Source: Methanosarcina acetivorans C2A (lineage in GTDB: Archaea > Halobacteriota > Methanosarcinia > Methanosarcinales > Methanosarcinaceae). Taken from it: a stretch of DNA of 64,000 nt. Position numbers and translations under genes: made by a program. The stretch covers positions 2,666,001 to 2,730,000 of the forward strand of contig NC_003552.1 of NCBI RefSeq assembly GCF_000007345.1, written 5' to 3'. The notes under the pieces are model-generated. The model was not told the origin of the DNA, made no database searches, and saw nothing but the letters and a program-made list of their open reading frames with translations. This document shows positions 47-64,000 of this stretch, one piece after another; positions within the stretch are counted from its first letter, which is position 1; each line of letters begins with the position of its first letter.

Positions 47-299
47 TGTTAATTTCTTTTATTGCAGTTATATATCGTATACAAATTATCCGCTATTTTA
101 CTTCAACTTCGAATTTGTTTCATTTTACATAATCATTCCATAGTGCCAAAATGGGATTGGAATTTATGCAAAACTTAATCTTTTACGTCTCATGCAATTG
201 TATCTTGTATTGAACTTTCAAATGGTTTTGAATCTGCGAAATCATTTCCGGATACAATAATTTCAGGCTGAAGTTAAAGTTAGTTTTATCTGCTTGTAT

Positions 300-415
300 A
301 ATAAATCATACTATTTACAAAGAATTGTCGATATTATACTAAATTATAGGTAATTTAGTCAGTTTTATGTAGTTTTATGTAATACATTTACACTATCAGA
401 TCAGAGGAAAGTAAC
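300..415 (+). promoter_or_regulatory. Putative promoter region of the binding-protein gene
   Basis: The stretch is A/T-rich with a TATA-like run (AAATTATA) near 340-347. A perfect 10-base direct repeat, AGTTTTATGT, lies at 361-370 and 371-380, about 35 bases before the start codon. The repeat could be a regulator site. The ribosome site is AGAGGAAAG at about 402-410. This is inferred from composition and position only. Confidence 0.3.
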
Positions 416-1507
416 ATGAAAATCATCACTTGTTTCGGAAGAAATGTCACAATACCTGAGAATATCGATAGGGTAGTCTGCTCGGGAGGAGGGTGCCTTC
501 GCTACCTGGTATACCTGCAGGCCCAGAACTATGTAGTAGGGGTTGACAGTATTGAAAAGGAAAAAAGAGAAATTGAGGGCCGTCCCTACGTCCTTGCAAA
601 CCCGCAGCTCAAAGATTATCCTCTTATTGGCGAATTCAGGGGCGAGGATGACCCTGAAAAAATGATTGCCGTTGGCCCGCAGGTAATCTTGAAAACCATC
701 ACACCCGGTTCTGTATCTGTGACCAGTGCGGCTGATGCTGACAAGCTTCAGGATGAAACCGGCATCCCGGTTGTTATGTTCCCGTATGGATCTTTGAAGA
801 ATCAAAAAGACAGAGTTGAAATGAATAACTCCCTCAGAGTAATGGGCGAGGTCGTAGACAAACAGGAGAGGGCAGAAGAAGTAATTGCTTATATCGACGC
901 TACGATGCATGACCTCCAAAACAGGACAGTGGGCATTCTTGAATCCGAAAGAAAGGTTGTTTATGTAGGAGGAGTGAGCAGTAGAGCGGCGGCTTATGGG
1001 ATAATCTCTACCGAGCCGGCTTACCCTCCATTCCTGTGGGTGAATGCAAACAACGTTGCAGCCGGAATAGGTGCAGACCATGCGCATATTGCTATGGAAG
1101 CTCTCTTAGATTGGGACCCGGAGTATCTGTTTGTCGATATGAGTACAATCCAGCGGTGCGATGGAGGAGCCATAGGAGAACTCAAAAATGATGCGGCTCT
1201 CACAGGGCTTTCAGCAATAAAGAATAACAAGGTCTATGGAGTGATTCCTTACAACTATTACAGCATCAACTTTGAATCGGTGCTTGCAAACGCTTATTTT
1301 GTAGGAAAAGTACTTTATCCGGCCCTTTTTGAAGATATCAACCCGGAAGCCAAAGCCAATGAAATTTATACTTTCTTCGTTGGCAAACCGGTATTTTCCG
1401 AACTGAACGGACAGTACGGAAACTTGGTATTCAAGCAAATACCACTGTGTGATGGGGATATAATGGAGTGCATTTTGCCGACGGAGCAGTTCCGGAAGAT
1501 TACCTGA
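416..1507 (+). CDS. Metal-complex (Fe3+-siderophore/cobalamin-type) periplasmic-binding-fold protein, leaderless
   Basis: This 363-residue protein resembles the FepB/BtuF class of ABC-transporter substrate-binding proteins. Family features include the early segment DRVVCSGGGCLRYLVYL, the middle VGPQVILK, the ALLDWDPEYLFVD segment typical before the hinge, and the closing NNKVYGVIPYNYYSINFES. Family members are normally exported lipoproteins, but this one begins MKIITCFGRNVTIPENIDRV with no signal peptide or lipobox, so as read it would stay in the cytoplasm. No permease or ATPase gene lies next to it. It could be a cytosolic metal- or corrinoid-handling protein, or a relic of a transporter. 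The ATG follows GAGGAAAG at good spacing. Fold assignment is fairly safe; ligand is unknown. Confidence 0.8.
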   Translation: MKIITCFGRNVTIPENIDRVVCSGGGCLRYLVYLQAQNYVVGVDSIEKEKREIEGRPYVLANPQLKDYPLIGEFRGEDDPEKMIAVGPQVILKTITPGSVSVTSAADADKLQDETGIPVVMFPYGSLKNQKDRVEMNNSLRVMGEVVDKQERAEEVIAYIDATMHDLQNRTVGILESERKVVYVGGVSSRAAAYGIISTEPAYPPFLWVNANNVAAGIGADHAHIAMEALLDWDPEYLFVDMSTIQRCDGGAIGELKNDAALTGLSAIKNNKVYGVIPYNYYSINFESVLANAYFVGKVLYPALFEDINPEAKANEIYTFFVGKPVFSELNGQYGNLVFKQIPLCDGDIMECILPTEQFRKIT

Positions 1508-1682
1508 CTTATGTCAGGAAAAAATATTTCTGGATCATGGAGAGCTTCGGCTCCTCTTCTATGTGAGTCTATTCGATTTCGGTAGGAGAGGTAACTATCG
1601 TATTCTGAAAAATCCAGAGTGTGGAAAAACTCTGCAGAATGTACTTAAAGGACTTCGAAGGGTTCACATTGGACGCTTCGTT

Positions 1683-2408
1683 CTAACCTTGCCGGCAAAA
1701 CCTCGAGGTCTGGACCCCGAGGAAGGCCTTCCCTGAATATTCTGGTATGGTCTTTACTGCTTCTCTTTTTTTGTGCAGCTTTGCAGCAGCTGCAGTCCTT
1801 CCGGAAAGATCTCCCTGGAAAAATCCTTGCAGGCCAAGACCTCCTTTCTCAGGCGTCAGGATCTTGCAGGTTCTGATACATCCGACTTTCCGCAGATGTC
1901 TTTTCAATTTTCACAATTTTTCTTGCTATCGTTTTTCTGAAAAACTCCATATTTAACCAAACGTACGTTTTTGATATTTTTCCAAAATTTTTGTCTTTTT
2001 GCCTTCGTCGAAAGCCCAAGAAGCCATTTCCATGGGATTCAGTTGAGATAATAGCTGTAATTTTTCGAATAATTATCCAAAAACGATAGCAGAAAAAATG
2101 TTGTTTTTTTGAAGACATCTGCGGAAAGTCCGATACATTATTTCCCGGAAAATATCCTGCAAAAAGGACTTCCTTTTCCTTTTTCCAGTACTTCCTCTGG
2201 TCTTTCCTTGCAGCTGCAGAACCAAAGCTTCCAGAACTTTCCTTGCCGGCAGGACCTCGGGTCCGCATCTAGAGGAAGGCCTTCCCAAGATATCCTTGCA
2301 GGATGTTTCATGCTTCTCTTTTTTGTATTGGTTTGCAGCAACTTTCCTAGCTTCCTAGGGGAAAACCTTCCTGGACCCGGAGAAAATCCTTATTACTCCC
2401 TCTTTTAA
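1683..2408. repeat. Diverged direct repeats in a gene-free, C/T-rich stretch
   Basis: Two diverged copies of a unit of about 160 bases sit at roughly 1686-1850 and 2241-2400. Both contain CCTTGCCGGCA, then the 12-base palindrome GGAAGGCCTTCC (1721-1732 and 2274-2285), then TGCTTCTCTTTTTT and a CTTCCTGG-like tail. Between them are further TTCCTTGC-type units (2170-2240). Open frames across 1508-2439 show no family and look accidental. I see no gene in this interval. Confidence 0.55.
1875..2138. repeat. Long imperfect inverted repeat, MITE-like
   Basis: The left arm (1875-1934) and right arm (2078-2138) are reverse complements over about 60 bases with few mismatches. Shared blocks are ACTTTCCGCAGATGTCTT with its complement, and TGCTATCGTTTTT with its complement. 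The loop is about 140 bases and codes for nothing recognisable. The layout fits a MITE-type element lying inside the direct-repeat region. No target duplication was identified. Confidence 0.5.
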
Positions 2409-2472
2409 TCTATTCCTGCAATCAATATGCATAGATATTGTGTATACTTCGTGTATATATGAGGTATACTTA

Positions 2473-2712
2473 GTGGTTCAAGCAATGATCAACATTGATG
2501 AAATAACAAACCGGGTCCTTAATATCATAAAAGCTACGTACGGCTTGAAAGACAAAAGCGCTGCAATTATGCATATGGCAGCAGAATATGAAAAAGAAAT
2601 TATGGAACCTGCACTCAGGCCTGAGTTTATTGAAAAGGCTTAGGAGATCGTGAAACAGAAGCCTATAGATGTGGGAACGGTTGAGAACTGGAAAAAGATG
2701 CTTTACTGTTGA
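2473..2712 (+). pseudogene. Decayed DUF2683-type antitoxin
   Basis: The frame from GTG 2473 (VQAMINIDEITNRVLNIIK) matches the downstream intact antitoxin at 2889. An in-frame TAG at 2641-2643 ends it after PEFIEKA, but homology continues past the stop (EIVKQKPIDVGTVENWKKML) until TGA at 2710-2712. The protein would therefore lose its C-terminal toxin-contact region. Such small proteins pair with RelE-type toxins in Methanosarcina. Its partner fragment begins 7 bases later. Together they look like an older, dead copy of the locus at 2889-4149. Confidence 0.65.
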
Positions 2713-2718
2713 TCTTAT

Positions 2719-2862
2719 ATGTATCGGCTACAAGTAAGGTCAGAAGTTCAAAAAGTTGTTGAGAAGCTGGCAAAAAATGACAAAAAGCAAGTTGAAATCA
2801 TATTCAGTAAGGTAAACGAGATCCTTCAGAGCCCCTTCCAGAACGACATAATATTAATATGA
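2719..2862 (+). pseudogene. Truncated RelE-type toxin fragment
   Basis: The fragment encodes MYRLQVRSEVQKVVEKLAKN and about 27 further residues. It aligns with the first 40 or so residues of the toxin at 3135 (MYRIKISPKLDEIIQKLDKK), then breaks off after ILQSPFQ into unrelated sequence and a TGA. The C-terminal half carrying the catalytic beta strands is missing, so it should be inactive. It directly follows the decayed antitoxin. Confidence 0.6.
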
Positions 2863-2888
2863 TATTGTTCTTTTATTATATGGTAAAT

Positions 2889-3128
2889 ATGGCTCAAGCG
2901 ATAATAAATATTGATGATCATACTAAAAAAATTTTGGATATTATTAAAACCAGGTATGATTTAAAGGATGAGAGCGCAGCTATTGAGCTAATGGCTACTC
3001 AGTACGAAGAAGAGATATTGGAACCTGAGCTAAGACCTGAATTCGTGGAGAAAATGCAGAATATAATGAAGGAAGAGCCCATAGATATCGGGACTATTGA
3101 AGATCTAAGAGCCAGATATGGGCACTGA
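2889..3128 (+). CDS. DUF2683-type antitoxin
   Basis: This small acidic protein of about 79 residues starts MAQAIINIDDHTKKILDIIK and continues with DESAAIELMATQYEEEILEP, the arrangement of the DUF2683 family that precedes RelE-type toxins in methanogens. The N-terminal half reads like a ribbon-helix-helix DNA-binding segment and the acidic C-terminus would wrap the toxin. I chose the internal ATG at 2889 over 2859 or 2880 because family members begin at MxQAIxNID. The toxin gene starts 6 bases after the stop. The toxin is now split by an IS element, so this antitoxin probably has no functional local partner. It may still repress its own promoter. Confidence 0.7.
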   Translation: MAQAIINIDDHTKKILDIIKTRYDLKDESAAIELMATQYEEEILEPELRPEFVEKMQNIMKEEPIDIGTIEDLRARYGH

Positions 3129-3325
3129 TTTTGAATGTATCGAATAAAAATCTCACCGAAGCTTGACGAAATAATTCAAAAATTGGATAAGAAAAATAAG
3201 AAACAAGTGGATATTATTTTAAAGAAAGCAGGTGAGATCGCAGAAAATCCACATAGATATAAGAACCTTCGAGCACCACTCAACAATTTAAAAAGGGTGC
3301 ATATCGATAAACATTTCGGGTATTG

Positions 3326-3622
3326 TTAATTAAATATAGGTAACTCTTTATTTCTGTTTTTCATCAATAGAAGAACAGAGTACTTTAGCATTTCAAGACT
3401 CTTCGTATAACACTTTGTCTTTCGTCTCAACCTTGCCAGAAAGTGTCTTAATATGCCGTTATATCCTTCAACTGTATACGTTTCTGCTTTGGATTGAGTA
3501 TGAATCGTTTCAGGAATAAACTCTGCATATGCCCTCCAGTGATCAGTCATCACTTCTCCAATCTCTTTCTTCTTTAATTTTTCCCAGAGTAGTTGTCCAG
3601 TTTTCGTTCCTCTGCTACCCAA
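3326..3622 (-). CDS. IS1-type transposase, C-terminal frame (InsB-like)
   Basis: About 98 residues continue the catalytic domain of the frame at 3574-4008: KTGQLLWEKLKKKEIGEVMT, then DHWRAYAEFIPE with the second catalytic Asp. VEGYNGILRHFLARLRRKTK follows, holding the Asn-rich and glutamate segment typical of IS1 and IS240-like enzymes. The true N-terminus is supplied by the other frame, so the nominal start here has no meaning. It overlaps the first frame by about 49 bases. The two frames together match the length of a complete IS1 transposase of about 230 residues. Confidence 0.75.
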   Translation of the reverse strand: MGSRGTKTGQLLWEKLKKKEIGEVMTDHWRAYAEFIPETIHTQSKAETYTVEGYNGILRHFLARLRRKTKCYTKSLEMLKYSVLLLMKNRNKELPIFN

Positions 3623-25753: not shown

Positions 25754-26488
25754 TCACAAGAACTGAATATATTTCGGCCTTTTTGCTTTTCTTGGGAATT
25801 CTTCACTGGTACAGGGAATTACATTATCGATAATAGAAGAAGCAAATTCGTACCAGGTACAGATTCCATCATTTGTAATATGATATATTCCGGGGTCGAG
25901 TTCAATTATTTCTTTTACTTTGTTGGCAAGATCCATTGTATAAGTGGGTTTGCCGAACTGGTCGTTGACAACCTTAACGGTATCCGTTTCCCCGGATAAC
26001 TTTAGCATGGTTTCAACGAAATTTTTCCCATGGATTCCAAAAAGCCAGGAAATCCTTATAATCCTGTAGTCATTCATATTCTCAATGATTTTCTTTTCAC
26101 CGAGCAGTTTTGAGTGCCCGTATACATTAATTGGGTTTGGGATATCCGTCTCCACATACTCTTTTTTGGAGCCGTCGAAAACATAATCGGTACTGAAATG
26201 AACAAGTGGCGCACCTGCTCTGGCGCAGGCTTCTGCAATGTATCTTGGTCCGTATCCATTTACCTGAAATGCAAGTTCCTTGTTGTCTTCACAGCCGTCC
26301 ACATTGGTATAGGCTGCTGCATTTATCACAACATCAGGTTTTATTTTTAGAATGGATTCAATAACCTGCTCTCTGTCTGTAATGTCGAGGTCATAGTGTA
26401 TCAGTTTAACAGCATCAGGAAAGACTTTGCACAGGTCTGAACCAAGCATCCCGCTGGCGCCGATAATCAGCGTTTTAATGGTCCTCAC
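25754..26488 (-). CDS. rmlD: dTDP-4-dehydrorhamnose reductase, C-terminus frameshifted
   Basis: The 244-residue frame has the SDR Rossmann loop LIIGASGMLGSDLCKVF, the segment VINAAAYTNVDGCEDNKELA and the catalytic YGHSKLLGEKKI (YXXXK). It reduces the last intermediate to dTDP-L-rhamnose. The frame ends early (KRPKYIQFL). Removing two bases in the AAATATATTCAG run near 25768 restores SVLVNTKTEPMRHWKEALKD and YIQERNI, the usual RmlD ending, with a TGA at 25683-25685 that overlaps the rmlA ATG. It is therefore either a real frameshift or a sequence error. The start is GTG, or possibly ATT 26479 behind GGTGAGG. Confidence 0.85.
   Translation of the reverse strand: MRTIKTLIIGASGMLGSDLCKVFPDAVKLIHYDLDITDREQVIESILKIKPDVVINAAAYTNVDGCEDNKELAFQVNGYGPRYIAEACARAGAPLVHFSTDYVFDGSKKEYVETDIPNPINVYGHSKLLGEKKIIENMNDYRIIRISWLFGIHGKNFVETMLKLSGETDTVKVVNDQFGKPTYTMDLANKVKEIIELDPGIYHITNDGICTWYEFASSIIDNVIPCTSEEFPRKAKRPKYIQFL
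26462..26481. repeat. 20-bp direct repeat, rmlD-start copy
   Basis: GATAATCAGCGTTTTAATGG covers the 5' end of rmlD. It is repeated with one mismatch at 27835-27854, across the 3' end of rmlB. The two copies bracket the acyltransferase gene and suggest that rmlB and rmlD were once contiguous. Confidence 0.75.
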
Positions 26489-39600: not shown

Positions 39601-41265
39601 TCACGTTTTGTTAGTCTCAGCTTTCCTTGTCTCACATTTTATCAGTTTTACCCTCCCGCCCGAGCCCTCATTGTCCTGTTCCATCTCCACTGTATACGTG
39701 TAATCCGATATTTCCGCAAGCCCGCCGGCTCCGCTGCCTCCTACTATCAGCGAGTAGACCTTTGCGTTATACTTCTTTTTTGCCTCTTCCCAGCGGGCAA
39801 GGACGAGCTCATCAGAGATTTCGGACTTCCCGTCGGTAATAAAAAGCAGATCTGCTCCCTGGAAGTCCTTTTCTTTCAGGGACCTGAGGCCTGAAGCAAG
39901 CGCTGTATTGAAGTCCGTCCCGCCGCCGAAGGTATAGAGCAGGAAGTTCAGGAACCTCTCTGACATCTTTTTCCTGCTGCTGAGTTCGATTTCCAGGTGC
40001 TGGCTTGTGGAGGCAAAAAGAATGACCTTCATGTCTCGCTGCTGGGCAAGCATAAGCTTTGCCATGGCAAGCACGGCAGACTTGGCAAGCGTTTGCGGGG
40101 TCCCGTGCATGGAACCCGAGGTATCGACGAGAGTGATCATGGGCCCTCGCGGTTTTATTCTGGGAGGACCTGTATAGTGCTTTCCGAGCAGCTGGTAGCT
40201 CAGGAGTTTTCCTTCAAGCATATCAGCATAGAACTTCCGCTTCAGAGCCGGGTTGAGGAGCTTTGCGGCTTCCATGGGCAGGAGGTTGTTTATCGAGTCC
40301 GAAAAGCGCACGGTCTGAATCCTGTTTTTCCCAAAAGGCGAATAGCGTATGCGGTCGGATGGGGGGTCAAACTCCCTCCTGCCTATAAAGTTCACGATTC
40401 TTCTCAGGTCAGGGTTTTTTTCAAAAAAAGCCGAGTAATTTTTCAGCATCTTAAGCTGGACATAAAATGGCTCTTTTTTAAGCTCCTTTACGGAATAACT
40501 CCAGCTCCTTCCAGGGAAAAGAAGGGCGAGGGTATCGAAAAGGTCAAGGTTTTCTTCCATTTCGGAGATGAACTCCTGCATTCTGGAGTAGAGCCCTTCC
40601 AGCATCCCGTCAAGAAAATCCTGGCACCCATCCTTCTGCATGAAATTGAGGACGGCTTCGTAAATGTCGGACTTTCCGGAAACTTGGGCAGAAGACTGAA
40701 CATTCCGGGCTACCAGATCCTCGGGATTCCCGCCTGCCCAGAGGAGGAGGGTTTGTTTAAGGATTTTTTCAAACTCCCTGAGGATGGCTCCAGTTTCGGC
40801 ATCAAGCCTCATGAACAATTCTTTTTCCGAACCGCTATTCTTAGCTCCTGAAAAGCGTTCCATAAGGTCGTAGATCAGAGGCAGAAGCAGCTTCAGACAT
40901 GCAACTCCTGCTCCTCGACTCCTTTTTGTAATCTTTTGAAGCCCTGGCCACGGCCCTGAGTTTCTCAGGGCAAGAAAGATAGGGTAAAATGCCCCGAAAA
41001 GCTCTATGAACCTTTCAGCATCTTTTATCTCATACGGTTGCTCAAAGAGGATTTCAAGGGCAATCACTTCGGCTATCTTCTCGCGCAGAGGGCGGGGAAT
41101 CGTGCGGGGGTAAGCAATGGTGCTTCTCAGTTCACCTTCCAGCAGGGAAGCTGCCTGTCTCTGAACAGAAAGAGCTTCGTGCCAGAGCCTGTTTCTGGAA
41201 AAAAAAGAGTATGACTCAGAAGAGGCTCTATCAGGACTGCTCAGAAAACCGGTTGAATCTTCCGT
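39601..41265 (-). CDS. VWA-domain protein, partner of a MoxR ATPase
   Basis: This is a protein of about 554 residues. The C-terminal third is a von Willebrand A domain with the MIDAS motif MITLVDTSGSMHGTPQTLAK and a later GGGTDFNTAL, i.e. DXSXS plus Thr. It resembles the ViaA-like partners of RavA/MoxR ATPases, which act as chaperone-like complexes. The open frame has no ATG, GTG or TTG near its natural 5' end; the first is a GTG at 41067. Coding sequence (FLSSPDRASSESYSFFSRNR) clearly continues upstream to an ACG at 41263-41265, 5 bases behind GAGGTG. I take ACG as the likely start. It lies 17 bases after the MoxR stop. Confidence 0.8.
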   Translation of the reverse strand, partial: TEDSTGFLSSPDRASSESYSFFSRNRLWHEALSVQRQAASLLEGELRSTIAYPRTIPRPLREKIAEVIALEILFEQPYEIKDAERFIELFGAFYPIFLALRNSGPWPGLQKITKRSRGAGVACLKLLLPLIYDLMERFSGAKNSGSEKELFMRLDAETGAILREFEKILKQTLLLWAGGNPEDLVARNVQSSAQVSGKSDIYEAVLNFMQKDGCQDFLDGMLEGLYSRMQEFISEMEENLDLFDTLALLFPGRSWSYSVKELKKEPFYVQLKMLKNYSAFFEKNPDLRRIVNFIGRREFDPPSDRIRYSPFGKNRIQTVRFSDSINNLLPMEAAKLLNPALKRKFYADMLEGKLLSYQLLGKHYTGPPRIKPRGPMITLVDTSGSMHGTPQTLAKSAVLAMAKLMLAQQRDMKVILFASTSQHLEIELSSRKKMSERFLNFLLYTFGGGTDFNTALASGLRSLKEKDFQGADLLFITDGKSEISDELVLARWEEAKKKYNAKVYSLIVGGSGAGGLAEISDYTYTVEMEQDNEGSGGRVKLIKCETRKAETNKT

Positions 41266-41282
41266 ACCAACACCTCATTTTC

Positions 41283-42830
41283 TCATCTGAGCTTGAATCT
41301 GGACCCGAGCCCTTTCATAAAACCACTGGAATTGCTGCCTGAATCCGGTACCTGGACTTTTGCTTCAATTTTTGATGCATGGGGGTCGGAAGTATCTGAA
41401 TATCCTGGTTTTGCAGGCCTGAGCTCTCCAGACCTGAATTCTTTGTGCTGCAAGCCCAGCAGGGTTTTGATTTCGCCGATCAGGGTTTCTGTTCCGGAAA
41501 GCTGTGTGCTTCCTGCGTCGTGCAGGAGCAGGGCTTCGTTTCTGTCAGGGGTTGAAAGCCAGATGTTTGAATCCATAAGATTTCTGAGCAGTTCCTTTTC
41601 TTCCTCAAGCCGCTGTTTTACTCGATTTACTCTTCCAGCCAGGGTTTCGAATTCTTTTTCAAAAACCGCTCTCTGACTTTGAGACAGGGTATTTTTCTTC
41701 CCTGAACGTTCATGGAGAGAATCAATTTCCCTTACCAGGTTCTCATAAGGATAGATCCTCGAATTTCCTTCCTGCTTCAGAGTATAGCTGTGGTTCGGGC
41801 AGGCAGTATGGTGCAGCTCCAGTTTATCTCTAAGCTGGAATTCTTCCCCGCAACTGTCGCAGATGATTCCAACGGGAAGCTCGTTTTTCAGGGCGATACT
41901 GAGTGCCGTTTTCAGGTCTTCCGCATCAAGGCGGAGTTTTTCGGTGTTTGTCCCGCCGGATACTACGAGTTTGAAAACTGTTTTTCGGATGGTTTCCCGC
42001 TCTTCGGGCAAGTTCCAGAGCATGTGCTGGAGCAAAAGGATCATTGTCCTGTCAACAGCCGGACAGCCGCTGCTGCAGGCTGCAACCTTCAGGACCTGAA
42101 CAATTCTTTTCCAGCGCCGGTCCGAGATTTCTATTTCCTGCAGCTGGAGGTTTTTCCGGAGTTCCGTGATTATAACTTCAACATCAGGGTCAACAGGCAG
42201 GGAGTTTGAGCTTCTGCGAAGCTTTTCGATTTCTGAAACCTGAATGCTTGCAGCAGGCCTGAAGTCCTCAGGTGCTCTGAAAAGGAGATTTTTGAAGTTT
42301 TCATCATTCTGGATATAGGAGAGCCTGTACCTGAACAGGAAACGGTCATAAAGTGCTTCTAAACTTTCGTCTTCTTCCGGAAGCTCGTTCGAAGCCCCGA
42401 AGACCGAAAGCAGAGGGACATCGACTATCTCCCTCCCATTATGGTATTTTCTTTCGTTCAGTATGGTCAGGAGACTGTTGAGGATAGCACTGCTTGCCTT
42501 AAAAATCTCGTCCAGCAAAGCAATATGGGCCGTCGGGAGGCAGCCGTTGATGTTTCTCCTGAACTCGTCTTCTTCAAGGGCTTTTAAAGAAAGAGGCCCG
42601 AAGATCTCTTCGGGGGTTGAAAAGCTTGTTAAAAGGTAATTAAAAAAGTTCCCGCCTTCAATTGTCTGGCAAATGCTTCTGGCAAGCTGGGTCTTGGCTG
42701 TGCCGGGGGGGCCCAGAAAGAGCAGGTTTTCTCCTGAAAGGACAGCAAGGAGGGAGCCGTTTATTTCGGCTTCGCGTTCTTTGAAGTAGTCTGCAAATTC
42801 CGATTTGATTTCGAGGAGAGTTTCTTTCAG
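41283..42830 (-). CDS. MoxR/RavA-type AAA+ ATPase
   Basis: The protein is about 515 residues. Walker A is FLGPPGTAKTQLARSIC near residues 31-47 and Walker B is HIALLDEIFKASSAILNSLL near residue 103, followed by the sensor-type GASNELPEEDESLEALYDRF and an arginine-finger region. A coiled C-terminal part holds a small zinc-finger-like segment (CDSCGEEFQLRDKLELHHTA). The frame contains no ATG, GTG or TTG before Walker B. A CTG at 42828-42830, seven bases behind GGGAGG, gives the expected N-terminus LKETLLEIKSEFADYF. The VWA partner follows in the same operon. Confidence 0.82.
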   Translation of the reverse strand: MKETLLEIKSEFADYFKEREAEINGSLLAVLSGENLLFLGPPGTAKTQLARSICQTIEGGNFFNYLLTSFSTPEEIFGPLSLKALEEDEFRRNINGCLPTAHIALLDEIFKASSAILNSLLTILNERKYHNGREIVDVPLLSVFGASNELPEEDESLEALYDRFLFRYRLSYIQNDENFKNLLFRAPEDFRPAASIQVSEIEKLRRSSNSLPVDPDVEVIITELRKNLQLQEIEISDRRWKRIVQVLKVAACSSGCPAVDRTMILLLQHMLWNLPEERETIRKTVFKLVVSGGTNTEKLRLDAEDLKTALSIALKNELPVGIICDSCGEEFQLRDKLELHHTACPNHSYTLKQEGNSRIYPYENLVREIDSLHERSGKKNTLSQSQRAVFEKEFETLAGRVNRVKQRLEEEKELLRNLMDSNIWLSTPDRNEALLLHDAGSTQLSGTETLIGEIKTLLGLQHKEFRSGELRPAKPGYSDTSDPHASKIEAKVQVPDSGSNSSGFMKGLGSRFKLR

Positions 42831-43171
42831 GTTCCAGCCTCCCGGTTTGTTATTTTATGAGATAATTCAGTAATGAAAGAGTTTAATGTATCTGGTTTCA
42901 GTTGGGGGATGGTTTTAGTTATGAAATGGTTCCATTGTGAGATAATTCCGGGATAAAAGAGTTTTTTGAAGACTGTTTTAGGTCTGTTTTCTAAGTCTTT
43001 GGCTTGATTCTATTTAAGACTTGCAATTATGTTTTGATCCGGTTTTTCAGAAATCCTTTTCGATGTAGTTTCAATTGTCAACAGCGGTTTAATTTTCCCC
43101 ACATTGGTCGGTTTAAATTTCCCCATCTTTTGATATAAATTTTACTCAATTTTTCATAAACTTGTTAGAAA

Positions 43172-43945
43172 TTACTGGTAGATATTTCCTGATTTTATAC
43201 CATGTTTCTTCCTTTCTTTCAGCCTGTAACTTTCTCCTCTGATGTTAATTGTAGTACAGTGATGGAGAATTCTATCAAGTACAGCAGCCGCTATTACCTG
43301 GTCTTTGAATATCTCTCCCCATTCTCCATATGATTTATTTGACGTAAAGATGGTCGAACTCTTTTCATAACGTCTGGAAATCAACTGAAATAAACAGTGA
43401 GCTCCTTCCTCATCAAATGGGAGATAACCCATTTCATCAATGATCAGAACTTTAAATTTCATAAAGCCTTTGAGTTTCTTTTCAAGCATTCCTTCTCGAT
43501 TTGCTATTTTCAACTTCTCGATAAGGTTTCCTGTATTGGTAAAGTAAACCGAAATCCCTGCTTTTGCTACTTCAATCCCAAGAGCGATTGCAAGATGAGA
43601 CTTTCCAACTCCGGGAGGACCAAGGAAAACAACGTTTTCTACGTTATGAACAAATCTCAACGTTGCAAGGTCTTCTATGACTTTTTTATCAATAGATGAC
43701 TGAAACTCAAAATCGAATTCATCAAGCGTCTTTTTCACAGGAAATGCTGCACTTTTCATCCTTCTCTCAATTGCAGCAGCTTCTCTGTGCTTCTTTTCCT
43801 GTTCAAACAGATAATCAAGTACTTCCATTGTTGTCTTGCTATCTCTTGCAGCAATTTCAAGATAGTTGTCCAGAACCTCTTCAATAGTATTCAGTTTGAG
43901 GTATTGCAGGTTACTGTGAAGTCTCTCATAGCTGAAATTGTTCAT
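43172..43945 (-). CDS. istB: IS21-type transposition helper ATPase IstB
   Basis: The 257-residue DnaC-like AAA+ protein has Walker A in NVVFLGPPGVGKSHLAIALG and Walker B in KVLIIDEMGYLPFDEEGAHC. STIFTSNKSYGEWGEIFKDQ follows as sensor 1. IstB assembles on target DNA and stimulates the IstA transposase. Length is typical. Its ATG overlaps the istA stop by four bases (ATGA), so it is translationally coupled to istA. Confidence 0.93.
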   Translation of the reverse strand: MNNFSYERLHSNLQYLKLNTIEEVLDNYLEIAARDSKTTMEVLDYLFEQEKKHREAAAIERRMKSAAFPVKKTLDEFDFEFQSSIDKKVIEDLATLRFVHNVENVVFLGPPGVGKSHLAIALGIEVAKAGISVYFTNTGNLIEKLKIANREGMLEKKLKGFMKFKVLIIDEMGYLPFDEEGAHCLFQLISRRYEKSSTIFTSNKSYGEWGEIFKDQVIAAAVLDRILHHCTTINIRGESYRLKERKKHGIKSGNIYQ

Positions 43946-45186
43946 TCAAAATCACCGTCACTGAATGTTTCATAGATGTCAAGAGACCTCTTTTCAACTT
44001 CAGGACCTGAGAACTTCAACGGAATCTGTAATTCTTTCTTGCATTTTGAATTCTCTTTAAGAATCTCACTCAGGAGGCCCTGAAAATGTTCCTTTTTTCT
44101 GGAAACCCTACAATTACCTGAAAGAATTTCATGTTCACAAACCTTCTCATAATCAACATAGACCTCGAATATTCCTTCAAAAATCTGAAGCTCTGCAGTT
44201 CTTCCTGCAAACCTGTAAGGAACAGAATACTTATTTCCAAGGAACGAAATATAACAGTCTCTGGAGACCTTTCTGGTCTCCTTATGGACAACTTTGTAAG
44301 GAGGAACCTGATCCAGAGGGATCAGTTTCTCCTCCTTAAAACGTTCAAGGGGGATTTGATAGGTTGTTCCGTGGACAGTTGAATTTACCCTTTCCAACCA
44401 ACTGTGAACTTGGGCGTTCAGGTCTTCGAGAGAGGTAAATCGTCTTCCAAGGAAGAAATCCCTCTTGACATAGCCTACCGTATTTTCAATTTTACCTTTT
44501 GTCTGAGGCCTGTAAGGCCTGCATAACCGTGGAATAAAACCAAAGCATTTGAAGAAATCCTCAAACTGTGAGTTCCATTCAGAATCTGATGATTTTAAGG
44601 CTCTTTTGATAACAACCTGTTTCATGTTATCATAGAGAATCTCCTGTGTAAATCCTCCAAAGTACTCAAAGGCGTTCAGATGACACTGGATAAGAGTGGA
44701 AGTGTCTATGCCCAGTGTAAATTCAACATATTTCATCCTGGAATATCCAAGAATCATGTTGAAGCAAAAGAGTTTCTTTATCTTTCCATCAACCTCAACT
44801 GTTCCCATCTCTGCCCAGTCAACCTGAGCCTGTACACCTGGTTTTGTTTCATAGCGGAATACAGCAGGGACTCCCTGCTGAGGTCGGACTTCTCTTACAA
44901 AGTCCTTGACGATGGTCATTCCTCCATCAAAACCCATTTCTTTGATTTCCCGATAGAGCCGAGCAGTAGTGTAGGAGCCTTCTTCAAGCTTTTTGAGTAT
45001 ATAAGGTTTATATGGATCAAGCTTGCTCTTTCTTCCGGGACGTTTCTGGGGTTCAGGTAAGGTTTTCAGCTGGAGATATTTCCTCACAGTTTTCCTGTCA
45101 AAACCGGTTTGTCTGGCGATTTCACTAATGCTCAAGTTTTGTGAACTTAAATCTCGAATCAAGAATAAATCCTCCTTTTTCAGCAT
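43942..45186 (-). CDS. istA: IS21-type transposase IstA
   Basis: The 414-residue DDE transposase has an N-terminal helix-turn-helix (LSISEIARQTGFDRKTVRKY) and the first catalytic Asp in QAQVDWAEMGTVEVDGKIKK. The second Asp is in ILYDNMKQVVIKRAL and the Glu in PQTKGKIENTVGYVKRDFFL. The C-terminal beta domain is complete. No stops or frameshifts are present, so the element should be active. ATG 45186 lies 89 bases inside the right end. Confidence 0.93.
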   Translation of the reverse strand: MLKKEDLFLIRDLSSQNLSISEIARQTGFDRKTVRKYLQLKTLPEPQKRPGRKSKLDPYKPYILKKLEEGSYTTARLYREIKEMGFDGGMTIVKDFVREVRPQQGVPAVFRYETKPGVQAQVDWAEMGTVEVDGKIKKLFCFNMILGYSRMKYVEFTLGIDTSTLIQCHLNAFEYFGGFTQEILYDNMKQVVIKRALKSSDSEWNSQFEDFFKCFGFIPRLCRPYRPQTKGKIENTVGYVKRDFFLGRRFTSLEDLNAQVHSWLERVNSTVHGTTYQIPLERFKEEKLIPLDQVPPYKVVHKETRKVSRDCYISFLGNKYSVPYRFAGRTAELQIFEGIFEVYVDYEKVCEHEILSGNCRVSRKKEHFQGLLSEILKENSKCKKELQIPLKFSGPEVEKRSLDIYETFSDGDFE

Positions 45187-45360
45187 GATTCACAATCCTC
45201 GAACTTTTCTCAAGGATTGAGAATTGGGGAATTTTAATCCGCCGAAAATGGGGAATTCTTAACCGCCGTTGACACAATAAGTTAAAAGATGTGTGAAAGA
45301 AAATCCAGACTAAAATATTTGTACTGTATACAATGAGTTTACCAGGGAACTTGAAGAGGT

Positions 45361-50142: not shown

Positions 50143-50163
50143 GTCTCCTAAGGGGGATTCCTT

Positions 50164-52569
50164 ATAAAAAACGTCTTTGAAAAACTGGGAATTTTTATTC
50201 TGAACAACCGTCCCGTCATAATGGCTGTCGTACTTTTGCTGGTTCTGCTATCTTTGCAAGGTGCCCAATATATCGAAATGGCATCCGGAACCGAGACCCA
50301 GGTATCAAAAGATTCGCAGCTGTACAAGGACTATGACCACCTCTTTCTGAACACTTTCAGCACAGAGAGCGTCATTGTGATGGTTGAAGGAAACGATGTG
50401 AAAACCGAGGACGTCGTGAAAGCTGCCGACAGGCTGGGGCAGCAGGCTCTGCTGGTTCCGGGAGTTACCAAGGTTTCAAGTGCTGCATCCATAATGAAGC
50501 AAATTAACTATGCTGAGTCTGGCAGGTCAAAAATCCCTAATTCGGATCGGGAAGTACGGGAATCGATTGAGAGCTACCCGGAATATTTTGAGAATCTTGT
50601 ACTTGATGAAACCCACACGCTCATAGTTATCCAGATCGAAGGGAGCAGTACTAGCCAGCAGAAGGAAGACATTATCAATAATATTGAAATAGCGTTAGAA
50701 GAAGCTGATTTTCCTCCCGGCTACAAACTTACTGTTACAGGCAGCCCTTCTCTCAGGCTCGACATTGAAAGTGAAATGGGAGCCAGTATGGGCGTGCTAC
50801 TCGGAATTGCAGGAATCCTGATGGTAGTCGTTCTTCTCCTGGTGTTTAAGCACGTCAGGTGGGGGCTGCTCCCACTTCCTGTTGTGCTGTTTGGAGTCCT
50901 TTTTACTTTCGGAGCAATGGGATATCTTGGAGTGCCCATGACAATGGTTTCCATGGCGGCTTTTCCGGTACTTATCGGGATAGGGATTGATTATTCCATT
51001 CAGTTCCACAACCGTATGGAAGAGGAAATCCACTGTGGCAAAACTTCTTCGCAGGCTCTTGTCTCTACGGTCAAGAATACCGCACCTGCCGTACTGATCG
51101 CGCTTGCAATGACGGCTCTCGGTTTTGTCTCGCTTTTTACTTCCGTTGTCCCAATGATCCAGGACTTTGGCAAACTCCTGCTCATCGGGGTAATCATGTG
51201 CTATCTTTCCTCGCTCTTTTTCGGGCTGGTAACTCTCTATAGTTTTGACTGGATTGCCCGGAAAAACCCGTGTGGGCTGTTCAGGAAAAAGGGGGATGAA
51301 GAGGGTAAAGTAGGTGAAAATGGAAACAATGGGCCGAAAAGAGACCTGGAAAATTCACTATGTGCAGGAAATATTCCGACACATGAACCCGGAGCAATTG
51401 AAAAAGCCTTGAAAAAAGTTACCGGTTTTACCATCAGACACTCTACCGTTATTCTTGTAGTTGCCTTTTTGACCTGTTGTGCAGGGCTTTATGCCGACCA
51501 GTCAATCCCCATCCAGACTGATACCAATTCCTTCATTCCTCAAGACATGCCCTCCCTGATCAACTACAAAAACATGCAGAGTATCATGTCGGGTTCGGGA
51601 GACCACCTTAATGTCATTCTGAAAGTAGATGACGCAAGTGACCCGGAACTGCTGGAGTGGATGGATGAGTTCTCCCAGCACGAAGTTGCAAACAGAGGGC
51701 ATGTTTACAGTGCCACAAGCATAGTGGACCTTGTAAAAGAACGGAATGGCGGGACGATTCCCGAGACTTCCGAGGAAATACAGGCGATATACGATGAAAT
51801 CCCCGCCAGCGAGAAAGGGGAATATATCGAAGGAGGTCAGCTGCTTCATATCGATCTGGATATAGGAACCGCTATGGCAGACCTTGAAATTACAGGCATA
51901 GAAGAGCTTCGAGATATTGTCCTTGCAGATATCCAGTGGATGCAGCCGCCCCCTGGTGTCACGGTTACAATAACTGGCAACTCGGTAGTTATCATTGACA
52001 TGGTTGCCGGGCTTACAACAGGCCGAAGTATGATGACTCTGCTTGGGGTCTTCCTGGTTCTTATCGGACTCCTGGTAGTTTACCGGGACATTGTGAAGGC
52101 TCTTTCTCCAATTATCCCGATGCTGGTCGTTATCGGCTGGTCAGGCCTGGTGATGACTGCCATGGATATCGCATATAACCCTATGACTGCAGTTATGGGT
52201 GCCCTGATCCTCGGAGTCGGGTCTGAGTATTCGATTTTGATGATGGAGCGCTATTTTGAGGAAAGGGATGCGGGACTGAGTCCTGTGGATGCTATCTATC
52301 AGGCCTCGTCTACTACAGGTACAGCCCTTATTGCTTCGGGGGCCACAACAGTATTTGGTTTCTCCGCCCTGATAGCCTCGCCGTTCCCGATGATTAGCAG
52401 CTTCGGGCTGGTAACGGTCATAGATGTCCTCCTGGCAATGATCGTCACTTTCGTAATCTTCCCGCCCCTGATAGTCCTGATGGACAGCCACAGGGGAAAG
52501 AAGCTGGACATTTTCGAGAAATTACAGGGACTCAGGAAAAAACGTCAGGCAGGACTTACCAATACCTGA
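50164..52569 (+). CDS. RND-superfamily exporter, HAE3/MmpL-like
   Basis: The protein has about 801 residues with 12 predicted spans in two repeats. Each half has a large outer loop (residues 40-205 and 450-605), with a charged cytoplasmic linker of about 50 residues (EEGKVGENGNNGPKRDLENS) between the halves. Span 4-type residues occur in PVLIGIGIDYSIQFHNRMEE and ALILGVGSEYSILMMERYFE, the family GXXXDY/E signature. It probably exports lipids or hydrophobic compounds using the ion gradient. The first ATG (50221) falls inside the first helix. An ATA at 50164, seven bases behind AGGGGG, gives the expected cytoplasmic N-terminus KNVFEKLGIFILNNRP. Confidence 0.88.
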   Translation: MKNVFEKLGIFILNNRPVIMAVVLLLVLLSLQGAQYIEMASGTETQVSKDSQLYKDYDHLFLNTFSTESVIVMVEGNDVKTEDVVKAADRLGQQALLVPGVTKVSSAASIMKQINYAESGRSKIPNSDREVRESIESYPEYFENLVLDETHTLIVIQIEGSSTSQQKEDIINNIEIALEEADFPPGYKLTVTGSPSLRLDIESEMGASMGVLLGIAGILMVVVLLLVFKHVRWGLLPLPVVLFGVLFTFGAMGYLGVPMTMVSMAAFPVLIGIGIDYSIQFHNRMEEEIHCGKTSSQALVSTVKNTAPAVLIALAMTALGFVSLFTSVVPMIQDFGKLLLIGVIMCYLSSLFFGLVTLYSFDWIARKNPCGLFRKKGDEEGKVGENGNNGPKRDLENSLCAGNIPTHEPGAIEKALKKVTGFTIRHSTVILVVAFLTCCAGLYADQSIPIQTDTNSFIPQDMPSLINYKNMQSIMSGSGDHLNVILKVDDASDPELLEWMDEFSQHEVANRGHVYSATSIVDLVKERNGGTIPETSEEIQAIYDEIPASEKGEYIEGGQLLHIDLDIGTAMADLEITGIEELRDIVLADIQWMQPPPGVTVTITGNSVVIIDMVAGLTTGRSMMTLLGVFLVLIGLLVVYRDIVKALSPIIPMLVVIGWSGLVMTAMDIAYNPMTAVMGALILGVGSEYSILMMERYFEERDAGLSPVDAIYQASSTTGTALIASGATTVFGFSALIASPFPMISSFGLVTVIDVLLAMIVTFVIFPPLIVLMDSHRGKKLDIFEKLQGLRKKRQAGLTNT

Positions 52570-63030: not shown

Positions 63031-63156
63031 ATTGATTGAAAATATATAATTGGGGAGAGGTTAGAAGCCAATTTCTCATCCCCTGGGTTAATTCCGAAGA
63101 GTTCCCTCTCAGGCGGATCGGAAATCGGATAACGTGATTTATCGGAGGAAGAGACT

Positions 63157-63570
63157 ACGATTCCATTTCTCTTAACTTTACTTGCATTTTTAAGAGTACT
63201 AAGAAGGTTGCTTAAGGACGAGAAGTTCCGTGCCCTCCTGTATATCACGGCGTTCACTCTTGCTATTGGGACTTTTTTCTATCATTCTGTTGAGGGTTGG
63301 GACTGGCTTGATTCTCTCTATTTCTCGGTTATCACCCTGACAACTGTGGGGTATGGAGATTTTACCCCTAAAACAAACATCGGGAAATTTTTTACAATAA
63401 TTTATATTTTTATAGGGTTGGGGATCCTTGTCGCTTTTGTTACTCCTATCGGAGAATATATAGTAGATAGAAGACTTGACAGGATACAGGAGAGGGAGCA
63501 GAAGAAAGAAATACCTGAAAATGAGTTTGATTTCTCCGGCGTAATCGGAAAGTTGAGGGGAAAAAAATAA
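63157..63570 (+). CDS. Two-TM potassium channel
   Basis: The protein has about 137 residues with an outer helix (LLYITAFTLAIGTFFYH), a pore loop with the K+ selectivity filter TLTTVGYGDFTP, an inner helix (IIYIFIGLGILVAFVTPIGE) and a charged tail. It should form a tetrameric K+ channel. Starting at TTG 63208 would drop the preceding hydrophobic coding sequence IPFLLTLLAFLRVLRRLLKD. An ACG at 63157, seven bases behind GGAGGA, starts that segment exactly. I take ACG as the probable start. A T-rich run after the stop (GGTTTTTTCTTTT) may end transcription. Confidence 0.85.
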   Translation, partial: TIPFLLTLLAFLRVLRRLLKDEKFRALLYITAFTLAIGTFFYHSVEGWDWLDSLYFSVITLTTVGYGDFTPKTNIGKFFTIIYIFIGLGILVAFVTPIGEYIVDRRLDRIQEREQKKEIPENEFDFSGVIGKLRGKK

Positions 63571-63680: not shown

Positions 63681-63737
63681 CGTGTATCGGGCATATGTGC
63701 AATAATTTTTTAAAATTAAACAAATGGGGTGAGGAGC

Positions 63738-64000
63738 ATTAACAGATTCAGTTTTTTTGTAATGGTAGTGCTTATTACAGCAATGTTATTTGTTTCCGGT
63801 TGTTCTCAGAATACACCTGAAGAAGATACAACCGAAGAAACAGGTGGCGAAGTGACCGAAGAGGTAACCGAAGGAGCAATGGAAGGAACAACGGAAGAAA
63901 CAACTGAAGGAGTAACTGAAGAAGCAACAGAAGAAGCAACGGAAGAAACAACCGAAGGGGTAATGGAAACAGAAGGGGAAGGAGGATATAGCTCTGTTAT
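63738..64000 (+). CDS. Thr/Glu-rich lipoprotein, 5' part only
   Basis: The frame runs off the window. It reads NRFSFFVMVVLITAMLFVSG then CSQN, a lipoprotein signal with the lipobox-like VSGC. More than 60 residues built from TEE, TTEE, TEGV and ATEE repeats follow, a flexible acidic linker such as those tethering a binding domain to the membrane. The start may be GTG 63729, or ATT 63738, which lies behind GGGGTGAGG and gives the usual signal-peptide start. The function of the missing part is unknown. Confidence 0.65.
   Translation, partial: MNRFSFFVMVVLITAMLFVSGCSQNTPEEDTTEETGGEVTEEVTEGAMEGTTEETTEGVTEEATEEATEETTEGVMETEGEGGYSSV

Follow-up and report, generated by a model that had tools for sequence, protein, structure and literature searches.

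The bacterial genes infC, which encodes IF3, and pcnB start at AUU, a near-cognate codon that is thought to limit their output. For archaea, the available text of a review names AUG, GUG, and UUG alone as start codons (PMC7531240). In Methanosarcina mazei, CTG starts about 5% of the unannotated small ORFs found by Ribo-seq, according to the accessible part of that study (PMC11456600). Here we analyzed a window of 64,000 nucleotides, bases 2,666,001–2,730,000 of the single-contig genome (5,751,492 bp) of Methanosarcina acetivorans C2A. Positions refer to the window unless they are marked as genome positions. The minus strand carries an adjoining pair of genes for a MoxR AAA+ ATPase (RavA-like) and a VWA-domain protein (ViaA-like). 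The start codons read in the sequence, CTG for MoxR and ACG for VWA, are each one base off AUG, and neither is GUG or UUG. From the comparison with orthologues, we consider it very probable that translation of MoxR begins at CUG and that of VWA at ACG, each with an initiator Met-tRNA that tolerates one mismatch, on a 30S subunit held by the Shine–Dalgarno (SD) motif, and that a few other Methanosarcina genes are initiated likewise.

Start codons of the MoxR and VWA genes

The MoxR gene (41283–42830, minus strand, CTG to stop) matched Pfam bpMoxR (3e-56) and AAA_5 and has the codon substitution pattern of a coding sequence, and its closest solved structure is RavA (PDB, 4e-57). The VWA gene (39601–41265, minus strand, ACG to stop) matched Pfam VWA_2 (5.5e-11) and VWA_CoxE. 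Matches to the RavA and ViaA models, the latter from NCBIfam, were significant (5e-68 and 1e-35, respectively) but under the curated equivalog cut-offs. An IS21-like pair, recognized by eye, lies on the minus strand at 43172–45189 and consists of an IstB-like gene (43172–43945) and an IstA-like transposase gene (43942–45189). The MoxR start sits about 340 bases downstream of this pair, which may carry or cut off the promoter of the MoxR–VWA operon in the M. acetivorans strain.

The MoxR frame (41283–42854) begins with an in-frame TAA, followed by AAT AAC AAA CCG GGA GGC TGG AAC CTG. The CTG (42830–42828) is 7 nt after GGGAGG (42843–42838), and the earliest in-frame ATG, GTG, or TTG is TTG 42518, which is codon 105 and lies behind Walker A. 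The VWA frame (39601–41274) opens with TGA GGT GTT GGT ACG. Its ACG (41265–41263) is 5 nt after GAGGTG (41276–41271), and no canonical codon comes in frame before GTG 41067, which is codon 67. The sequence thus reads as an earlier note on this DNA had described it, with 104 codons in MoxR and 66 in VWA free of canonical start codons. Both starts have an SD motif at normal spacing that is conserved (GGGAGG-N7-CTG and GAGGTG-N5-ACG), and when measured from the last G of the (G)AGG core the distance is 7 nt in both genes. Based on the codon usage of the genome, where ATG, GTG, and TTG together make up 4.47%, the chance of canonical-free gaps this long is 0.9% for MoxR and 5% for VWA. Alone, such gaps are suggestive but weak evidence and no proof; it is the orthologue comparison that makes the case.

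MoxR orthologues were drawn from 60 relatives, and the codon aligned to the start could be read in 28 loci of the genus. It was CTG in all 28, with GGAGG or GGGGG at the place of the SD motif in every one. In a second set, made of named genome contigs and partly overlapping the first in genomes, the start was CTG at 21 of 21 loci; these named relatives come from Methanosarcina species or MAGs, and for a few the label goes no further than Methanosarcinaceae or Euryarchaeota. Upstream, three of the loci have in-frame stops at most nine codons before the start, and the codon two before it varies (TGG, TTA, TTG, TCA, AAA, CTG, CTA, or ATG). By this comparison the region before CTG is non-coding, and the SD motif is its conserved part. 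Behind the start, pairwise differences per site in codons 2–104 were 0.060, 0.043, and 0.408 at positions 1, 2, and 3, a pattern that places these codons under strong purifying selection.

For VWA, the codon aligned with the start was ATG in 14, ACG in 10, and ATT in one of 25 orthologues, and nearly all of them have a GAGG-type SD motif at that same position. When only species with ACG were compared, the two halves of codons 21–66 gave 0.154/0.160/0.337 and 0.176/0.080/0.498 at positions 1/2/3. The third-position excess therefore persists in codons that would be untranslated if GTG at codon 67 were the start. Codons 1–20 are loosely constrained (0.301/0.332/0.411 per site), and therefore the exact VWA start is placed by the SD motif and by the ATG of the relatives. 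Both genes have a translation signature behind the start (codons 2–104 of MoxR and 21–66 of VWA), with stops and variable codons before it. Comparison among relatives thus shows where the starts lie, that they are conserved, and that the codons behind them are translated. The CTG of every MoxR orthologue and the 14 ATG and 10 ACG of VWA, read in the alignment with orthologues that the earlier note had suggested as a check, strongly support its proposal of genuine near-cognate initiation.

If translation began instead at TTG 42518 and GTG 41067, which are the first in-frame ATG, GTG, or TTG of the two genes, shortened proteins would be made. An ATG at MoxR codon 13 in 15 relatives might point the same way, but codons 2–12 are still constrained there. 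Moreover, purifying selection acts on the codons before TTG 42518 and GTG 41067, MoxR would lose Walker A, and the position of the canonical codon shifts between species while the SD motif and CTG stay fixed, so that initiation downstream is highly unlikely. We found no evidence for a sequencing error or a decaying gene in the M. acetivorans strain. The same codons are present in independent assemblies of many species, and the frames are open and under purifying selection; the chance of error or decay is negligible.

The same genome also has a paralogous MoxR–VWA operon (positions 78–3376 of the stretch at genome 305500–310500), in which ATG opens both genes. Its MoxR is 63% identical to that of the window across the ATPase part, and the N-terminal helix of the CTG-started MoxR is also found in this ATG-started paralogue, directly behind its start. 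The earlier note had pointed out that two adjacent genes of one operon share the trait. Both genes of the window operon do have it, but it is not special to the operon: the paralogous operon uses ATG in both genes, and unrelated genes of the genus have near-cognate starts as well.

Near-cognate candidates in the window and the genome

Four further places in the window had been suggested as similar cases, of which one was rejected. The start of an HAE3/MMPL exporter gene (50152–52569, plus strand; TIGR00921) at 50164 is solid by conservation. Its SD motif GGGGGA (50152–50157) precedes an ATA start codon (50164–50166), and across orthologues and paralogues this codon is ATA, ATT, or ATC at all 29 loci and never ATG. 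The orthologues have a G-rich SD motif before the start codon, and many have a stop a few codons upstream. The case for a two-helix ion channel gene (63144–63570, plus strand; Pfam Ion_trans_2) at 63157 is good on the same kind of comparison. GGAGG (63144–63148) precedes ACG (63157–63159). Besides the window, six relatives have ACG as the start codon; about ten have ATG, one has ATA, and one, from an incomplete assembly, has ACA. A lipoprotein-like gene (63726–63998, plus strand), which runs past the window end, likely starts at ATT (63738–63740). This codon is ATT in the window and six relatives, and one relative has ATG. A GTG in frame, three codons before the ATT, is an alternative start in the window; only some of the loci have it. 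In an RmlD-like reductase gene (25754–26488, minus strand; Pfam RmlD_sub_bind), an in-frame GTG at 26488, three codons upstream of ATT 26479, makes the ATT unnecessary. In the 21 other RmlD-like loci compared, ATG or GTG stands in frame five codons upstream.

Many of the AUU-type HAE3 exporters have a short out-of-frame mini-ORF (of the ATGAGGGGAATCTACTATTAA type) that holds the SD motif and ends on the AUU start, and the AUA-type exporters are without it. Ribosomes might thus arrive from an upstream start or from another frame, by termination–reinitiation at a mini-ORF or by frameshift, and CTG and ACG would then not be selected by the SD motif. Several VWA and exporter orthologues do have a short mini-ORF of the form NTG-AGG-... 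across the start, and coupling by termination–reinitiation has a precedent in archaea in the available part of one study (PMC10666635). However, conservation does not extend to the mini-ORFs (one VWA orthologue has lost the stop, and the ATG is missing in others), and we saw none upstream of MoxR and none in ATA-type exporters. Delivery of ribosomes from such ORFs is therefore improbable, and SD-led initiation at the near-cognate codon is the reading we prefer.

To see how frequent such starts are, genome positions 150,001–550,000 (400 kb) were compared with stretches of three relatives. Codon-level evidence was obtained for 255 genes, and 83 of them aligned over at least eight codons upstream of the first canonical codon. 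Nineteen of the 83, picked by substitution pattern, were inspected closely, and the rest were judged from the table only. Three further near-cognate starts were upheld among the 255 genes: ATT in an FMN reductase and in a paralogue of the exporter, and CTG in an FmdE-like gene. The FMN reductase gene (genome 524821–525492) has ATT or ATC at 28 of 28 genus loci and never AUG, with GGGGG just upstream, and the Pfam FMN_red model starts exactly at its ATT codon. The FmdE-like gene (genome 447356–447997) has CTG at 10 loci, in the M. acetivorans clade, and TTG at 19 others. Near-cognate starts thus look rare (an estimate near 1% of genes, with a wide margin), yet old and shared by the genus.

Several short candidates of the survey resembled shadow ORFs or conserved non-coding sequence and were dropped. 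The frame at genome 171194–171964 was also set aside; by eye, it reads like the part of a methylamine methyltransferase gene behind an in-frame TAG of the pyrrolysine type, and the 54 codons that follow the TAG include no canonical start.

Weak start codons: selection or drift

In the mechanism we propose, an SD motif at normal distance would keep the 30S subunit over CUG or ACG, and the anchored subunit would let Met-tRNAi pair at a codon with one mismatch to AUG. Other Methanosarcina genes would initiate likewise at AUU, AUA, AUC, ACG, and CUG. The weak codon may be retained because output stays low, which we infer less surely than decoding by Met-tRNAi. In archaea, aIF1 destabilises mispaired initiation complexes, as described in the available parts of two papers (PMC7531240, PMC6237735), and therefore near-cognate output should be low and could track the state of the initiation factors. 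A low-output design of MoxR and VWA is plausible by analogy only, since Escherichia coli RavA and ViaA are scarce, with about 350 and 90 copies, respectively, in the accessible text of one study (PMC3893208). More generally, near-cognate starts may plausibly keep expression low or respond to initiation factors, as the earlier note suggested. A near-cognate start like that of infC was looked for in the aIF1 gene, and its start is ATG.

The conservation of the MoxR codon allows a modest argument that the weak codon is kept. A canonical start codon at this position was found in none of the 28 orthologues, across a neutral (fourfold) tree length of about 6.9 substitutions per site, and only 7 of 188 fourfold sites are invariant. 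Position 1 is invariant although A, G, or T there would give a standard start. Furthermore, Leu is invariant at 41 MoxR columns, and only three of these, including the start CTG, use one and the same codon in all species.

The start codons might instead have drifted neutrally, with a good SD motif making weak codons tolerable and no selection for low expression. On the tree of MoxR and VWA genes, the VWA start codon changed at least three times, and the channel start codon changed at least five times; ACG and ATG are both found among close relatives. ACG is in both deep clades, and thus it is probably old at the VWA start. Since the VWA and channel starts become ATG in some species, the orthologues indicate that a weak start is not essential in these two genes. 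The paralogous operon with its ATG starts likewise speaks against a strict requirement. On the other hand, the MoxR CTG, the exporter AUH, and the FMN reductase AUY are never AUG, though one substitution away, while neutral sites take about 6–7 substitutions over the same tree. Neutral drift is a serious possibility, if somewhat short of an even chance. We put selection for weak start codons at well under one half. The fuller proposal is that a gene set of Methanosarcina (MoxR, the HAE3 exporters, FMN reductase, and others) is held near-cognate by selection against AUG and that its output follows the stringency of aIF1, aIF1A, and aIF2; it is rather unlikely. In the 400-kb sample, we saw no case in which ATG had been replaced by a near-cognate codon after a strong SD motif, and counting the codons that follow conserved SD motifs gave too much noise for any enrichment to be visible.

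Comparison with known systems

The AUU, AUA, ACG, and CUG starts described here are conserved across a genus with genetically tractable species, whereas the usual archaeal starts are AUG, GUG, and UUG. In the open PMC literature, outside which lie most subscription papers and all preprints, we found no paper describing archaeal genes with conserved starts at ACG, AUU, or AUA and nothing directly on point for archaeal ACG, AUU, or CUG starts. Annotation that allows only ATG, GTG, and TTG will truncate such proteins, and MoxR would lose Walker A. These genes also offer a test bed for asking how strictly the start codon is checked by the eukaryote-like initiation factors of archaea.

Like infC and pcnB, the genes here would use SD-led initiation at a conserved codon one base from AUG. 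Unlike those two, which depend on bacterial factors and IF3 proofreading, they are in an archaeal host with aIF1, aIF1A, and aIF2, and they do not encode initiation factors. The CTG-started small ORFs of M. mazei are from the same genus and share the CTG codon of MoxR; the accessible text of that study deals with small ORFs without conservation analysis and does not mention ACG, AUU, or AUA starts or full-length conserved genes (PMC11456600). In archaeal start selection led by the SD motif, as far as the available text of two papers goes, the motif positions the ribosome, as we propose here (PMC7531240, PMC6237735). Finally, the E. coli RavA–ViaA pair has a MoxR ATPase next to a VWA partner, as the window pair does, but the model scores of the window pair are under the equivalog cut-offs.
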